Shown in pieces: positions 14,064 to 46,149 of a stretch of DNA of 64,000 nucleotides. Position 1 is the first letter of the stretch. Each line of letters opens with the position of its first letter. This stretch comes from Kaistella sp. (GTDB lineage Bacteria > Bacteroidota > Bacteroidia > Flavobacteriales > Weeksellaceae), in the NCBI GenBank assembly GCA_019459085.1, contig JAIBEW010000023.1, positions 1 to 64,000 on the forward strand, in the 5' to 3' direction. The translations under genes were made by a program, and so were the position numbers. The notes below the pieces were generated by a model. It was given only the letters and a program-made list of their open reading frames with translations, searched no databases and was not told the origin of the DNA.

Positions 14064-14618
14064 TTATTTTAAGCGGTCCGGATTCTGTTTCAGGAAACTG
14101 TCCCATCCGGTGTAATTTTTATCTGTAACCACATTTCCGGAGTTGAAATGATGGCAAACCGCTACCGCCAAACCGTCGGAAGCATCGAGATATTTTGTAG
14201 GAAATTCCTTTAAATTCAGCAGACTTTGTAACATCCCGGCGACCTGTTCCTTGCTCGCATTTCCGTTTCCGGTAATCGCCATTTTAATTTTTTTTGGAGA
14301 ATATTCGGTAATCGGAATGTCGCGGTGCAATGATGCCGCCATCGCTACACCTTGTGCACGACCCAATTTCAGCATGCTTTGAACATTTTTTCCAAAAAAA
14401 GGAGCTTCGAGAGCGACTTCATCCGGATGGTATTCATCAATCAAAGCCAAAGTCTTGTCGAAAATAATCTTAAGCTTGGTTTCATGATTCGGGTATTTTT
14501 TCAGAATCAGCTCATGAATCGAAACCATTTTCATCTTTCCTTTTTCCACAGAAATAATTCCGAAACCCATGATGGTCGTGCCGGGATCAATGCCCAATAT
14601 AATTTTTTCAGTTTGCAT
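14064..14618 (-). CDS. ruvC: Crossover junction endodeoxyribonuclease RuvC
   Basis: Holliday-junction resolvase acting with RuvAB. The 184-residue protein has the RNase H-like fold markers: LGIDPGTTIMGFG with the first catalytic Asp at residue 10, VALEAPFFGKNVQSMLKLGRAQG with the catalytic Glu, and DASDGLAVAVCHH with the last acidic pair. The ORF track extends 39 residues upstream; the start at 14618 (MQTEKIILGIDPG) restores the standard length and places the first motif correctly. The upstream 95 bases are shared with the divergent padR promoter. Downstream lies a gene-free gap of 124 bases to the DUF4407 gene. Confidence 0.95.
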   Translation of the reverse strand: MQTEKIILGIDPGTTIMGFGIISVEKGKMKMVSIHELILKKYPNHETKLKIIFDKTLALIDEYHPDEVALEAPFFGKNVQSMLKLGRAQGVAMAASLHRDIPITEYSPKKIKMAITGNGNASKEQVAGMLQSLLNLKEFPTKYLDASDGLAVAVCHHFNSGNVVTDKNYTGWDSFLKQNPDRLK

Positions 14619-14672: not shown

Positions 14673-14704
14673 TTTGATGCATAACAAAATTATGTATAGC
14701 TTTG
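14673..14704 (+). promoter_or_regulatory. padR-operon promoter
   Basis: TTTG at 14673-14676, 20 bases, TAGCTTTG at 14697-14704: a full match to the Bacteroidota consensus. The first ATG codons (14707, 14713) begin within nine bases of the -7 element, so the transcript would be leaderless or nearly so. The inverted repeat at 14677-14712 fills the spacer and covers the -7 element. Confidence 0.75.
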
Positions 14705-14712
14705 TTATGCAT
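14677..14712. promoter_or_regulatory. Perfect 12-bp inverted repeat, probable PadR operator
   Basis: ATGCATAACAAA at 14677-14688 and TTTGTTATGCAT at 14701-14712 are exact reverse complements with a 12-base spacer; their centres are 24 bp apart, about two helical turns. The left arm abuts the -33 box and the right arm contains the -7 TTTG and the candidate start of transcription. The geometry predicts autorepression by the PadR protein encoded immediately downstream. Symmetry and positions are seen; binding is inferred. Confidence 0.7.
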
Positions 14713-15048
14713 ATGAAAAAGAACGCTTTATACAAAGGAACCCTTCAGAATATCATCCTTAAACTGTTGACAACAGAAGTGAAGATGTACGGTTACCAGC
14801 TTACTCAGCGGGCAAAGGAACTCACGAAGGGAGAACTGGAAATGACGGAAGGCGCACTTTATCCGCTGCTGCATAAACTGGAAAATGATGGAATCATCCA
14901 TTCAGAAATCCAAAATGTAAACGGACGCGACCGTAAATATTATCTGCTCACCGACAAAGGGAAAAGACAGCAGGTGACACAGGAAGAGGAAATGAAGTCG
15001 TATCTTTTTAATTTAAATGTAATTTTTAAAATTCAGGCCGATGAATGA
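14713..15048 (+). CDS. PadR family transcriptional regulator
   Basis: A 111-residue PadR-type winged-helix protein: LYKGTLQNIILKLLTTEVKMYGYQLTQRAKELTKGELEMTEGALYPLLHKLENDGIIHSEIQNVNGRDRKYYLLTDKGKRQ carries the family pattern (MYGYQL, EGALYPLLHKLE, KYYLLTDKG), followed by a short C-terminal helix for dimerisation. The ORF track starts 13 residues earlier, but those codons lie within the promoter and inverted repeat; ATG 14713 (or 14707) gives the normal small PadR length. Its stop overlaps the next start by 8 bases, coupling it to two membrane proteins. PadR regulators of this size usually repress their own operon and respond to small hydrophobic ligands or partner proteins. Confidence 0.92.
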   Translation: MKKNALYKGTLQNIILKLLTTEVKMYGYQLTQRAKELTKGELEMTEGALYPLLHKLENDGIIHSEIQNVNGRDRKYYLLTDKGKRQQVTQEEEMKSYLFNLNVIFKIQADE

Positions 15049-15751
15049 TTCCCCTCTCACCCAAATTCGCAACTATCTTTTGGATAAAAAACTTCCGATT
15101 GATATTTTAGTGGAAGTTCAGGATCATTTTATTTCCCAGATTTCTGATCTGGAGAGAGATGATAATCTGAGTTTTGAGGAGGCATTTGAAAAAGTAAAAA
15201 AAAGCTGGCAGAAGGAGTTGAAGCCTTATTGGGACGGCGGTTGGGATTTGTTCGATAAAAACAACATGACGCGTAAATTCGAAAGGCTGTTGATCTGGAC
15301 TTCCCTCAAAAAATGTTTCAAATACTCCTTAGTGGCAATTGTAATTCTCGCTCTTGTCTCTAAAATAGTAACACTGCAGTATTTTACCGGATTCTTTCTT
15401 ATCGCGATACTGGGAATAATGCTTTGGCCCATTATAAATCTGTTCCGAAGATGGAAAACGTTTATGCTTCCGAAAAAATATGACGATTATGTCCTGACCC
15501 TTTACCAATCCTTTAATTTCATAAATTTTGTATTTGCATACTCTTTTTATCAGGTGATTTCCGGTTACCGACATGGAGGCGCGCGATTCAAGGATTTTTT
15601 CACCACTTTTGAGTTGAATGCTGACATACTGGCTGTTGTTGTCTACTTTTCCATCATCAGCATCAGTTTCTTTGCACTGATCTCGCAACAGGAATACCTG
15701 AAACGAATTGAAAGAATAAAACCTTTTCTCAAATATCTGAAATCGTCATGA
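15041..15751 (+). CDS. PadR-linked membrane protein, copy 1
   Basis: A 236-residue protein with a soluble helical N-terminal domain of about 70 residues (LTQIRNYLLDKKLPIDILVEVQDHFISQISDLERDDNLSFEEAFEKVKKSWQKEL) and about four transmembrane helices after residue 95. The N-terminal domain resembles, by pattern and by PadR linkage, the DUF1700/HAAS helical domain of Firmicutes PadR-associated proteins; that comparison is from memory. The next gene is a clear duplicate. Starts inside the padR coding region (8-base overlap), so translation is coupled. Function unknown; a sensor or effector of the PadR protein is plausible. Confidence 0.8.
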   Translation: MNDSPLTQIRNYLLDKKLPIDILVEVQDHFISQISDLERDDNLSFEEAFEKVKKSWQKELKPYWDGGWDLFDKNNMTRKFERLLIWTSLKKCFKYSLVAIVILALVSKIVTLQYFTGFFLIAILGIMLWPIINLFRRWKTFMLPKKYDDYVLTLYQSFNFINFVFAYSFYQVISGYRHGGARFKDFFTTFELNADILAVVVYFSIISISFFALISQQEYLKRIERIKPFLKYLKSS

Positions 15752-16473
15752 ATGAAATGCAACTCACTCAAATCCGCACCTACCTTTTGCAGAAAAAACT
15801 TCCGATCGATATTTTGATGGAAGTTCAGGATCATTTTATTTCCCAGATTTCTGATCTCGAGAGAGACGAAAATCTGACCTTTGAGGAAGCCCTTGAGAAG
15901 GTGAAAAAAAGCTGGCAGAACGATCTTCAACTGTATTGGGACGGCAGTTTGGATTTGAACGATACGAGCAGGTTCACAAAGAAAATGTACCGGCAGATCA
16001 ATCTGGGAATTCTAAAGGAAACCATGAAAACTGGAGTCGGCATTGTATTCCTGTTATTCATTTTGGCGCAGTTTACCGGTGTATTTGTTTTTAAGTATGT
16101 GTTGACAGTGGCAATTGTAGCTCTTACTTTTTTCCCTTTGATCAATTACCTGGTTCACCCACAAGAATTTAACCTGGCAAAAAAATATGAAAATTATGTC
16201 CTGACTTATTATCAGCAGTCTGCGGCAATATTCTTCAGTTCATTCGCGGTCTTATTGCCGAATATTTTTGAGATTTATGATCATTCCGAGGCGGTATATA
16301 GCGTCTTCCGGTTTAGTTTTGCACCTGTTCAGGGTTTCTCGCCGTTTCTTTTCTGGAGTGTGTTTTTCTTTTTGATTTTTGGAAATGTGTTGGTTTATGT
16401 AAGCCAGAGAAATTATCTTCGACAAATCCATAAAGTAAAACCTTTTCTTAAATACCTTACCCCTTCGTCTTAA
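15748..16473 (+). CDS. PadR-linked membrane protein, copy 2
   Basis: A 241-residue paralog of the preceding gene, joined to it by an ATGA stop-start overlap. The N-terminal 65 residues are nearly identical to copy 1 (LPIDILMEVQDHFISQISDLERDENLTFEEALEKVKKSWQ), including long DNA identity, while the transmembrane half has diverged strongly although both end in a similar cytoplasmic tail (KVKPFLKYL against RIKPFLKYL). That pattern suggests the soluble N-terminus is under shared constraint, for instance binding the same partner, while the membrane part has specialised. Confidence 0.8.
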   Translation: MNEMQLTQIRTYLLQKKLPIDILMEVQDHFISQISDLERDENLTFEEALEKVKKSWQNDLQLYWDGSLDLNDTSRFTKKMYRQINLGILKETMKTGVGIVFLLFILAQFTGVFVFKYVLTVAIVALTFFPLINYLVHPQEFNLAKKYENYVLTYYQQSAAIFFSSFAVLLPNIFEIYDHSEAVYSVFRFSFAPVQGFSPFLFWSVFFFLIFGNVLVYVSQRNYLRQIHKVKPFLKYLTPSS

Positions 16474-16506: not shown

Positions 16507-17436
16507 ATGAACCGTAAAGAATTTCTCGCCACCACTTTTTCAGCCGGTTTAGGTCTGGCTTTTATGCCAAGCTTACTGAGCTGTGTCACGCCAATAGCAA
16601 ACCATAGCGTATTTGATCCTTTGATTTTAGGTGTAGGAGATCTTCGGAAAGTCCGCGGAAATATCTCCCGCTACACCAATAAAGGCGGAACGGTCGGGGT
16701 TTTTGAAACAAAGGAAGGTTTCCTCATCATCGATTCGCAGTTTCCTGATGCGATACAGCCGGTGCTGGACGGAATTTCATCAAAAGGCAAACCGGTACTG
16801 TTTCTCTGCAATACACATCACCACGGCGACCATACTTCCGGAAACATCGCTTTTAAAGATCAAAATACCAAAGTTGTCGCTCACCAGCGCGTACCGGAAC
16901 TGCAGCGGAAAGCTGCTGAAAAAAGCAGCAAACTCGCCGAACAGCGTTATGCAACTGTTCTTTTTGAAAAGGAATACAGAATTGATCTGGGAAATGAAAA
17001 AGTGACGGGCTATCATTTTGGGAACGGACACACTTTTGGAGATGTGATGTATCATTTCGAGAACGACAATGTGGTTCACATGGGCGATCTGATGTTTAAC
17101 AATGTGATTCCGGTTTACCGCACCGCAGACGGGTCGGATTCCCGAAACTGGATTAAAGTGCTGGAAAAAGCGCTGGCGAAATTTGATGATGACACCATTT
17201 TTATTTTCGGCCATGCGAACAAACCTGAACTGACCACCGGAAACAAAGCCAATCTGAAAGAAATGGCCAGTTTTCTGGAAGCTTCAAATGATTTTGTACT
17301 GAAAGCCATCAGTGAAGGAAAATCTACAGAGCAGCTGATGAAAGAAACTGCTTTTATTCCCGGTTTCGAAAACCGTAACACGCCGGAACGGTTTGCAGGA
17401 TTTCTGGATGAGCTGAGGAAAACATTACTAGGTTAA
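16507..17436 (+). CDS. MBL-fold metallohydrolase, exported
   Basis: A 309-residue metallo-beta-lactamase-fold protein. The metal-site residues are NTHHHGDHTSGN (HxHxDH) near residue 103, the GNGHTFGD His near 176, the HMGDLMF Asp near 195, and the closing IFGHANKPE His near 239. The N-terminus MNRKEFLATTFSAGLGLAFMPSLLSC looks like a twin-arginine-type signal with RK instead of RR and a possible lipid-acceptor Cys. A true beta-lactamase role is not implied; the family also holds quinol-linked and lactone hydrolases. It starts 33 bases after the PadR operon and may be read through from it; no terminator is visible between. Confidence 0.88.
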   Translation: MNRKEFLATTFSAGLGLAFMPSLLSCVTPIANHSVFDPLILGVGDLRKVRGNISRYTNKGGTVGVFETKEGFLIIDSQFPDAIQPVLDGISSKGKPVLFLCNTHHHGDHTSGNIAFKDQNTKVVAHQRVPELQRKAAEKSSKLAEQRYATVLFEKEYRIDLGNEKVTGYHFGNGHTFGDVMYHFENDNVVHMGDLMFNNVIPVYRTADGSDSRNWIKVLEKALAKFDDDTIFIFGHANKPELTTGNKANLKEMASFLEASNDFVLKAISEGKSTEQLMKETAFIPGFENRNTPERFAGFLDELRKTLLG

Positions 17437-27009: not shown

Positions 27010-27801
27010 TTATTTCACAAGGGTTCTGAGGTTGGAATTGTCGAGTCTTTTCTGGTAAATCGGAAGGTATTTTTCGATAGCGACTTGCGCTGCCTGATAA
27101 TTTCCGGCATCAATATAAGCAGACAGACGGTCTGATGTGTAGACAAACTGCAGGAAATTTTCCACTAAATTTTCCGGGATCTTTATCTTTTCGAAATATT
27201 CGGCGCCGAAGTAGTTCTTCATTTTCTGCACGGATGTATTCATCTTTTCGTAGGCATAATAGCGCTCTTTTTTCTTTTTTTCTCCCGAAAGAATATCATA
27301 AATAGTGTCAACACTGAAGGTGAGTCCGCCGCCGGAAAATCCTGCTACCGGAAGCTGAGGCGGGTTCCCGTCTCCTTTCGGTTCCGGCAGGCCGAGCATT
27401 TTCTGTATTTCGAGTGCTTTTTCCGATGATTTAAGGGAAGCGACGTCCTTTCTTAAATTCCCCGACGGTTTAAAACGGTTGATTACGACTTCCTGAATCT
27501 CATAATAAGCAATCTTCAGCTCTACAAGATTGGTGGAATTTTCAAGCATCGTCTGGTTCAGACTCAGATCTTTTCTTTCCGTTACAATGGAGGTGAAGCG
27601 GATGCGGTCTCCACTGTTTGCAGCAATGCGGAATTCTCCGTTATAGTCACTGAGCACGGTCTTCTGCGTGTTGAGGTTCGTTACAAAAATCTGGTTGAGA
27701 TAGAGCATCGAATTGTCCCTGAGGAATACCTGTCCTTTAAAGATCTGGGCATTGATATTCACCAAGGAAAGCAACACCAAAAATGTAAATATTTTTTTCA
27801 T
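27010..27801 (-). CDS. Secreted carboxypeptidase-regulatory-like domain protein
   Basis: A 263-residue protein with signal MKKIFTFLVLLSLVNINAQ. Residues about 20-110 are a carboxypeptidase regulatory-like beta-sandwich (FKGQVFLRDNSMLYLNQIFVTNLNTQKTVLSDYNGEFRIAANSGDRIRFTSI), the domain that opens TonB-dependent receptors, here without a receptor. The C-terminal half is helical (ERYYAYEKMNTSVQKMKNYFG) and resembles flavobacterial secreted proteins of unknown role. TAATTTTG (forward 27812-27819) gives a -7 element 10 bases before the start. Confidence 0.8.
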   Translation of the reverse strand: MKKIFTFLVLLSLVNINAQIFKGQVFLRDNSMLYLNQIFVTNLNTQKTVLSDYNGEFRIAANSGDRIRFTSIVTERKDLSLNQTMLENSTNLVELKIAYYEIQEVVINRFKPSGNLRKDVASLKSSEKALEIQKMLGLPEPKGDGNPPQLPVAGFSGGGLTFSVDTIYDILSGEKKKKERYYAYEKMNTSVQKMKNYFGAEYFEKIKIPENLVENFLQFVYTSDRLSAYIDAGNYQAAQVAIEKYLPIYQKRLDNSNLRTLVK

Positions 27802-44224: not shown

Positions 44225-45187
44225 TTATTTAATTTTTCTTTTGTTCAGGATCTTGTCGGAGATGGAAAGCATAAAACTGCGTACTGGATACAGCCTGAAC
44301 ATCTCTTTTTTTGAAGTATGGAATTTTGTCATTAAATCTTCCTCCACTTTCTCCGCGATTTTTGCATATCCTTCCATCGTCAGAAGTTTTTTATTCTTCT
44401 GCATCGAGGAGATGATTCTTTTAAGAATCCTTTTGTAGGAAACAAATTTTTGGTCTTTCATCGAAAAATCAAAATGCCTGATGAGAATTTTCTTCTGTTT
44501 TTCTGTTTTTTCCACAAAAACATCGCCAACCTGCTGTTCTGCGTGAATCCTGTATTTAAAGTATTTCTCTTCAAACATATGAAACTTCCCATCAATCGTT
44601 GAATTAAGTGCAATCCATTCGTCATGGTGAAAATCTTTGATCACCGGAAAAGGCAGTATTTTGGGAATAAAACTCTTTCTCAGTGCAACTGTGGCACCCG
44701 TGACAATGTTTCCGCAATAGGCAATGATATCAAAATAATTGACTTCGATATTTTTTTCTTTAAAAAATCCGGGCACATCCCAAACAGAATATACATTTAA
44801 CAGATTGTTATTGTCATCCATTCCGTATCCGTTCGACGCCAAAACATCAATCTCAGGATGTTCATCAAAAAATTCGCAGTATTTTTCCGCTTTTTCGGGC
44901 AGCCATTCGTCATCCTGATCCGAAAGAAAAATAATGTCATTTTCACAGAGCGAAATGGCTTTCTCAAAATTTTTGACGCTTCGGAGATTTTTTTCATTCT
45001 GATAGATTCTGAAAACGGAAGGATATTTCTCTTTATATGAATGTAATATCGATATAGTAGCGTCGGTAGATCCGTCGTCGCATACCACAATTTCATCAAC
45101 AGGCCGGGTTTGACTCAGGATCGAATCGAGCTGAATTCCGAGATATTTTTCACCGTTGTAGGTGCAGAGTGCGACTGATGTTTTCAT
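44225..45187 (-). CDS. Glycosyltransferase family 2
   Basis: 320 residues. GT-A fold start: SVALCTYNGEKYLGIQLDSILSQTRPVDEIVVCDDGSTDATISIL, then DIIFLSDQDDEWLPEKAEKYCEFF (the DxD-type metal motif as DQDD), as in rhamnosyl-type GT2 enzymes. The C-terminal half is basic and Lys-rich, suggesting membrane association. ATGA-type overlap with the preceding gene and a 2-base gap to the FkbM gene. Confidence 0.92.
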   Translation of the reverse strand: MKTSVALCTYNGEKYLGIQLDSILSQTRPVDEIVVCDDGSTDATISILHSYKEKYPSVFRIYQNEKNLRSVKNFEKAISLCENDIIFLSDQDDEWLPEKAEKYCEFFDEHPEIDVLASNGYGMDDNNNLLNVYSVWDVPGFFKEKNIEVNYFDIIAYCGNIVTGATVALRKSFIPKILPFPVIKDFHHDEWIALNSTIDGKFHMFEEKYFKYRIHAEQQVGDVFVEKTEKQKKILIRHFDFSMKDQKFVSYKRILKRIISSMQKNKKLLTMEGYAKIAEKVEEDLMTKFHTSKKEMFRLYPVRSFMLSISDKILNKRKIK

Positions 45188-46149
45188 AAATCTAACCGGA
45201 AAACGGTGTTTACCCAGTTGTCCAGAGTGTATTTTCTGTAAATTTCTTCCGGAACGGGGTCGTAAGCCGTTTCAAAAAAAGTTTGTTCTAAATTACTCAA
45301 ATCTTCGTTCAGCACCAAAATATTGTTGGGATTATAAAAATCATAGTGCTTCACGTATGGGTTGGCGGTAATGATTTTACGATTCAGGGCCATCGCTTCA
45401 AATATTCGGAAACTCAGACCAGACTGATGTTCCCGCACCAAATCCAGAATCACTTTTGAAGTTTCATAATATTTGGGAATTTCAGAATGCGGAATTCTTT
45501 TCGAACTAAAAACAAAGTTGCTGTTCTCTTCAGTAAAAGGAAGATTTTTCTTCCATGTTTTTTTTCCGACAATTACAAACCTGCTTTTCAGGCCGAAAGC
45601 GTCCATTTTTTTGCTGATTTCGTAGAGTAGATTGATCCTTTCATCATAAGAACCGAGGTAGAAAAGGTCGTATTTAATGTGCTGCGGATCCGAATTTTTA
45701 TGAGCCAGATAATTGTAGTTGCTGGTTTCCTTAAAACCGTACTTTTCAATGTCTTTTTTGTCGAAAGAAAAAACGGTGTCAAAAAGGTCAATCACTTTAT
45801 CAACCGGATTTCGCACGGTGCTGTCGTACAGATAAGCAATATATTCATCGGTAAATTTTCTGATTTCCAGATGGTATTTCCTTTCAATTGCTTCGGGGTT
45901 GATGACGAGAATTTTATCCTGTTTCCCTAATTTTTTCAGTTTTTCGAGGATGAGTTCCTGCCTGTTGACATTTTTAAGGTTTTTTTTGAGAAAAATTTTA
46001 GACAAAGCGTTTTTCACGCGCGCGCGGGAATTTCGGTGTCTGTATGCCCCAATATTGAGGTGATGAGCCTCGATGCCTTTTTTCCGCAGCGTTTCTACGA
46101 TATGCTGGTCGTAATTCCAGAAATCAAAACTGATCAGGCAAATTTTCAT
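45184..46149 (-). CDS. Glycosyltransferase, CgeB/GT-B-like
   Basis: A 321-residue protein with a Rossmann-like start (MKICLISFDFWNYDQHIVETLRKKG) and a C-terminal half with SYDERINLLYEISKKM, VKVILDLVREHQSGLSFRIFEAMALNRKIITANPYVKHYDFYNPNNILVLNED, where the GLSFRIFEAMA segment is the nucleotide-sugar-binding motif of CgeB-like GT-B glycosyltransferases. First gene of the unit. It diverges from the next glycosyltransferase with about 60 bases between start codons. Donor and acceptor unknown. Confidence 0.82.
   Translation of the reverse strand: MKICLISFDFWNYDQHIVETLRKKGIEAHHLNIGAYRHRNSRARVKNALSKIFLKKNLKNVNRQELILEKLKKLGKQDKILVINPEAIERKYHLEIRKFTDEYIAYLYDSTVRNPVDKVIDLFDTVFSFDKKDIEKYGFKETSNYNYLAHKNSDPQHIKYDLFYLGSYDERINLLYEISKKMDAFGLKSRFVIVGKKTWKKNLPFTEENSNFVFSSKRIPHSEIPKYYETSKVILDLVREHQSGLSFRIFEAMALNRKIITANPYVKHYDFYNPNNILVLNEDLSNLEQTFFETAYDPVPEEIYRKYTLDNWVNTVFRLDL

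Follow-up and report, generated by a model that had tools for sequence, protein, structure and literature searches.

The start codon of a padR gene in the window (the whole 64,000-nt stretch of DNA analyzed here) is preceded by a 36-bp block that is conserved among relatives, present in a single copy upstream of padR and found together with padR. Because of these three properties, we consider it very likely that PadR represses its own operon by promoter occlusion, the block acting as a composite operator-promoter. The first-pass annotation had proposed that the promoter of this regulator is its own operator, and sequence conservation together with the co-occurrence of padR and the element strongly supports that proposal; it is from these two kinds of evidence only that we recognize the overlap of operator and promoter that characterizes an autoregulated PadR operon. 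Taken as a whole, the locus is probably best explained as a self-repressing PadR operon with envelope-sensing membrane partners and a derived short leader. The coordinates of the features are summarized in Table 1.

Table 1. Features of the padR region, in positions of the window
Feature	Positions	Strand	Remarks
ruvC, divergent neighbor	14064..14618	-	PF02075, E=1e-41; own box TAAATTTG at 14631-14624
Candidate -33 element TTTG, not conserved	14673..14676	+	G14676 in 9/77 loci
Predicted composite operator-promoter, sharp-edged 36-bp conserved block	14677..14712	+	Per-column information, 77 loci
Principal dyad ATRCATAA-N5-TTATGYAT (half-sites 1 and 2)	14677..14697		Sole exact match in the 2.57-Mb genome
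-7 box TAGCTTTG (consensus TAnnTTTG)	14697..14704	+	TA and TTT invariant in 77/77 loci, final G in 74/77
Third half-site, A-K-G-Y-A-T	14707..14712	+	15 bp after half-site 2; pairs with half-site 1 as the outer repeat
Predicted transcription start	14709..14710	+	4-5 nt after the -7 box, as in F. johnsoniae; 3-4 nt leader
padR, small PadR (PadR-s2 type), 111 aa	14713..15048	+	PF03551, E=1.5e-21, 76.6 bits (cut-off 27)
ORF2, membrane protein, 236 aa	15041..15751	+	N-terminal three-helix domain (residues 1-62), then membrane helices; AlphaFold2 pLDDT 94.2
ORF3, paralogue of ORF2, 241 aa	15748..16473	+	79% aa identity to ORF2 in residues 1-62, 33% after

The conserved block and its half-sites

A perfect 12-bp inverted repeat had been reported at this position, and it is present: the arms ATGCATAACAAA (14677–14688) and TTTGTTATGCAT (14701–14712) are complementary at 12/12 positions and enclose a 12-bp spacer, ATTATGTATAGC. 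Its end had been placed one base before the start codon; the right arm in fact abuts the ATG at 14713, with 0 bp between them. The repeat is not due to chance. When the local 112 bp were subjected to dinucleotide shuffling, 2 of 2,000 shuffles yielded any 12-bp inverted repeat with a spacer of up to 20, and the 64-kb window holds six such repeat places, compared with two positions summed over eight whole-window shuffles.

To describe the block across species, relatives were gathered solely by PadR protein similarity, which gave 76 of them and, with the window, 77 loci. Most columns of 14677–14712 carry information near 2 bits, whereas the flanks, which are weakly conserved and A+T-rich, carry 0–1.3 bits. 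The consensus runs from half-site 1 (ATRCATAA) through GAAAA to half-site 2 (TTATGYAT), and then through A, two free bases, TTTG and two looser bases to half-site 3 (AKGYAT); three ATGCAT-type half-sites thereby surround the TAnnTTTG box. The best-conserved dyad among the 77 loci is the one formed by half-sites 1 and 2, not the outer repeat formed by half-sites 1 and 3. The third half-site is matched at 6/6 positions in 66 loci and at 5/6 in nine, and A14711 and T14712 are invariant. A fourth half-site lies at exactly +15 in nine loci, against a background of 1.4% for a single half-site; these loci come from several genera, among them Cloacibacterium, Cruoricaptor, Kaistella, Frigoriflavimonas, Bergeyella, and Epilithonimonas. 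These four-site loci contain two tandem dyads 30 bp apart, or about three helical turns, on either side of TTTG, and in seven of the nine, the AT of the start codon is also the AT of the last half-site.

The layout is thus one of ATGYAT/ATRCAT hexamers with a 15-bp period (CAT-N9-ATG). The published PadR motif is ATGT-N8..10-ACAT, with degenerate cases reported (PMC3506622); this operator, a typical and non-defining feature of PadR-s2 proteins, is not matched by the hexamer layout of the block. The half-site core is related to the published motif, but the arrangement is different, and our literature search found no PadR ATGCAT site. The first-pass annotation had assumed that one dimer on the repeat would block the polymerase. 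This is unlikely because the arm centers of the outer repeat are 24 bp apart, compared with the spacing in ATGT-N8..10-ACAT (PMC3506622), and we rejected a single dimer there on the basis of both the sequence logo and this distance. A better fit is given by two dimers bound to half-sites at a 15-bp spacing.

The promoter boxes had been described as consensus -33 and -7 elements. Both are present, separated by 20 bp between TTTG and TAGCTTTG, which fits a Bacteroidota promoter, but only the -7 box, whose consensus lies at positions -12 to -5 in F. psychrophilum (PMC9723704), is conserved. At the -33 place, 10 of the 77 loci have TTG or TTTG, and TTTTT stands there in the nearest relative; in F. 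johnsoniae, a -33 motif is likewise not evident (PMC6847099). The statement that the repeat covers the -7 box holds for its TTTG half, which lies under the right arm, whereas TAGC falls within the spacer of the repeat.

Occurrence of the block and the identity of PadR

The 2.57-Mb genome to which the window belongs, of Weeksellaceae type, contains one exact match to the dyad, and its matches with two mismatches are at the control level; a wider regulon was therefore rejected, as no further site rose above that level. With up to two mismatches allowed, the element was found in 146 of 323 family genomes, in a single copy in 145 of these, and a reversed control pattern gave 0 matches in the same 323 genomes. 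The element lies just upstream of padR. Within the window's genus, it occurs in 7/8 genomes that carry a close padR and in 0/28 that lack one (hypergeometric 1e-6), and the eighth padR-bearing genome has a diverged copy. The closest sequences by PadR are from Chryseobacterium sp. legu1, a Weeksellaceae metagenome-assembled genome (MAG), Cloacibacterium, Cruoricaptor, Halpernia, and Kaistella. The distribution is patchy: padR is present in 8 of 36 genomes of the window's own genus (G001–G035 and the window's own genome), and the element is present in 16 of the 33 genera of the family. A single family genome has two operator copies, which are 2 kb apart (G292:C22:14225-16303).

The protein itself has the winged helix-turn-helix of PadR-s2 (PF03551) and the corresponding motifs, YGYQL, EGALYPLLHKLE, and GRDRKYYLLTDKG (the GRDRKYYLLT region), within 111 aa, and these are kept in 16 aligned sequences. 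They deviate slightly from the published YGYE(I/L), EGT(L/I)YPxLxRLE, and G(P/R)RKYYx(L/I)TxxG, in a protein of about 110 aa. A second PadR, 39–42% identical to the first, is encoded in the same genome (G000:C19:134906-135139), and the sole HAAS match of this genome lies immediately downstream of it. Because a published vsr1 forward primer (PMC10812688) matches 17/19 bases at the start of its coding sequence, this second gene is very probably the Vsr1/ORF551 locus. The PadR of the window would then belong to the other Elizabethkingia-type subfamily, for which we found nothing experimental in the literature; the block thus supplies a candidate operator for a Bacteroidota PadR subfamily for which our search found none. 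Vsr1, the sister PadR, has been linked to vancomycin susceptibility in Elizabethkingia, which makes the PadR class relevant to the cell envelope in these bacteria.

Several known systems resemble the operon in part. In E. anophelis, a truncating mutation of vsr1 (PadR1 subfamily) raises vsr1 and ORF551 about 80–270-fold (PMC10812688). Vsr1-ORF551 comes from the same bacterial family and likewise has a small PadR gene overlapping a downstream membrane-protein gene, with known autorepression of over 200-fold (PMC10812688), but Vsr1 corresponds to the other PadR in these genomes, its orthologue here lying beside the HAAS match, whereas the PadR of the window belongs to the second, uncharacterized subfamily. 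LltR of Listeria monocytogenes is a PadR autorepressed about 150-fold, and its operon (lmo0599-lmo0600-lmo0601) also places a multi-span membrane protein, a DUF1700 partner, after the autorepressing regulator (PMC6624303); there, however, the partners are DUF1700/HAAS and a DUF4097 exoprotein, whereas the membrane proteins of the window are encoded in tandem and belong to a single family that matches no Pfam entry. LmrR and bcPadR1 (PadR-s2) are small PadR proteins with the same recognition-helix and wing motifs, and they bind their own promoter regions, but the Bacillota operator is ATGT-N8..10-ACAT, and the targets are drug pumps or other operons (PMC3506622).

Two readings other than self-repression bear on the block. 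A different regulator might bind it and control padR while PadR acts elsewhere. The half-site layout departs from the published PadR consensus, PadR binding here is a prediction, and upstream of vsr1, the paralogue, Johnson et al. saw no PadR consensus (PMC10812688), all of which would suit such a regulator. However, the element tracks the presence and absence of padR within the genus, no second site exists in the genome although a distinct regulator ought to have further targets, and the known PadR/membrane operons are autorepressed (PMC6624303, PMC10812688); we therefore regard a different regulator as improbable. That the repeat acts as an RNA hairpin or terminator, and not as a DNA operator, is suggested by the perfection of the inverted repeat, but the repeat is A+T-rich, has no T-run and lies upstream of the predicted transcription start, its spacer bases are conserved as well as its arms, and the half-sites follow a fixed 15-bp period, up to four in number, which makes this reading highly implausible.

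Predicted leader length of padR and ruvC

In F. johnsoniae, the transcription start lies 4–5 nt from the -7 box (PMC6847099). From this spacing and that in F. psychrophilum, +1 would fall 3–4 nt before the ATG, and the padR mRNA of the window's species is likely to be nearly leaderless. The first-pass annotation was right that such messages are uncommon in the phylum: leaderless mRNAs account for 5.5% in F. psychrophilum (PMC9723704), leaders under 10 nt for about 3.7% in B. thetaiotaomicron (PMC7366714), and of the leaders predicted in F. johnsoniae, 87% exceed 10 nt (PMC6847099). The leaderless transcript that it proposed thus stands as a prediction for this species but does not extend to the operon elsewhere. 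Only the window and legu1 have a gap of 8 nt from TTTG to the start codon; the gap is 16–24 nt in 73 loci, and 61 and 166 nt in two (these counts are for the 77 loci; the raw tally also took in loci outside the 77 and legu1 twice). Since 75 of the 77 operator loci have a gap of at least 16 nt, leaderlessness is not a property of the switch; it is a derived state, a recent local change that is not part of the switch design. The next-closest relative (L004), with a PadR 94% identical, shares the box and the third half-site but carries an additional 13 nt between this half-site and the ATG. Most simply, a leader deletion of about 13 bp would have occurred in the common ancestor of the window's species and legu1, as reconstructed without a tree. 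The operator lies 61 nt from padR in one relative (L008) and 166 nt in another (L006), in which the gap contains a tandem TTGAATC-type repeat.

Alternatively, the leader of padR might be of the ordinary kind or its coding region longer, with transcription from upstream of the repeat and translation at 14677, 14692, 14707, or 14713. No stop interrupts the reading frame as far back as 14674, ATGs in this frame lie at the first three of these positions inside the block, and a 7/8 match to the -7 box, TTATTTTG, ends at 14676. This upstream box, however, is missing in the nearest relative, whereas TAnnTTTG at 14697–14704 is near-invariant in the 77 loci. The starts at 14677–14707 were rejected as unlikely because most relatives have in-frame stops there, and both differences between the two leaderless species inside 14677–14712 would change amino acids. 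We consider this alternative unlikely, and a start at 14713 with a leader of a few nucleotides is preferred.

The divergent ruvC gene is a stronger leaderless case than padR. Its box TAAATTTG ends 5 nt before the ATG (start 14618). TAnnTTTG ends 4–5 nt before the first ATG of ruvC in 62 of 66 padR-linked loci and 6–7 nt before it in the other four; the same position was found in 19/20 Weeksellaceae genomes of a second sample that partly overlaps the first (the ruvC genes considered were those of L001–L089 and L136–L181). The box is missing in most other Flavobacteriales, with three further cases in one other family. This pattern predicts that ruvC is strictly leaderless and that this state is conserved across the family. 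Close relatives in which the padR leader is present or lost, together with the apparently leaderless ruvC, offer natural test cases for leaderless translation start, that is, for how ribosomes without Shine-Dalgarno pairing start on a leaderless mRNA. Elsewhere in the window, the genes at 45184–46149 (-) and 27010–27801 (-) are each preceded by a TAnnTTTG box at a leaderless-range distance, with gaps of 5 and 10 nt, and 15 boxes in the window lie 13–30 nt from a start.

Probable membrane-protein partners and the proposed switch

The regulator and two coupled membrane proteins had been taken to form one self-contained switch, and in outline this is supported, as padR, ORF2, and ORF3 overlap stop-to-start. 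The number of membrane proteins is not fixed at two, however: in 80/80 relatives fetched, one to four tandem membrane genes of the ORF2/ORF3 family come after padR. Among 151 of these proteins, L13, E25, D28, H29, and W56 are invariant, and most of the conservation is in the first 62 residues, whereas the membrane part is divergent. Amino acids shared by ORF2 and ORF3 use identical codons in 72% of cases in residues 1–62 and in 43% beyond, a difference that points to gene conversion, possibly of a docking domain, or to strong constraint in the N-terminal segment. The corresponding DNA (15041–15226 and 15748–15933) is nearly identical, and the rest has diverged.

ORF2 and ORF3 match no Pfam family over the cut-off, and searches of Pfam, NCBIfam, and PDB sequences for a known family gave no reliable match. 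Foldseek, run with the whole ORF2 protein and with its N-terminal domain, returned no match at E<=0.001. The AlphaFold2 model of ORF2 has helices at 3–15, 20–41, and 45–55, which form a three-helix N-terminal domain as in the HAAS-PadR dyads, a class of systems put forward as an alternative to two-component signaling (PMC11237479). The operon shares with these dyads a standalone PadR and membrane proteins with an N-terminal three-helix domain (PMC11237479), but its membrane partners lack a HAAS profile match and have KxxW instead of GxP in helix 3. PF22564 (HAAS) does not match ORF2 or ORF3 at E<=1, HAAS is absent among the 25 families listed for 66 homologues, and PF08006 (HAAS_TM) has no match over the cut-off in the phylum. 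The GxP motif, which kinks helix 3 in HAAS, has no consensus in helix 3 of the 151 proteins, which has A48, F49, K53, and W56. An hhalign comparison of the N-terminal domain with HAAS was weak (P=0.0027, 11% probability), with helices 1 and 2 in register. The domain resembles HAAS and may work like it but does not qualify as HAAS by these comparisons, and a membrane-protein family without a Pfam entry can be named as a probable PadR partner.

We propose the following mechanism. The block at 14677–14712 would be both the promoter of the padR-membrane protein operon and the operator of PadR. PadR dimers would bind ATGCAT-type half-sites 15 bp apart, first at the dyad 14677–14697 and then at 14707–14712. 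Bound PadR would occupy the promoter from about -32 up to and including the start site, along with the spacer and the -7 box, and exclude RNA polymerase, so that the operon's own product holds its expression low; occlusion by two dimers is the form that we favor, though less firmly than autorepression itself. An envelope change would be sensed by the membrane proteins, whose conserved three-helix N-terminal domain would contact and release PadR, and the regulator and sensors would be induced together until repression returns. Because there is no HAAS match by Pfam, no GxP and only a weak profile alignment, this signal transfer draws on gene linkage and conservation, and we give it an even chance. 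In the window's species and the sister strain legu1, the start codon would now abut the third half-site through the leader deletion. A broader interpretation, which we put forward tentatively and hold to be rather doubtful, is a one-operon type of membrane signaling, in which tandem, diversifying sensors would share a PadR-docking domain with no sequence relationship to HAAS, the repressor would act solely on its own promoter through three to four half-sites phased at 15 bp, and in one lineage the leader would have been lost, fusing repressor site and start codon. Downstream of ORF3, a protein with a metallo-beta-lactamase fold is encoded at 16507–17436, and this gene also adjoins the operon in three of the relatives (L003, L004, and L064).
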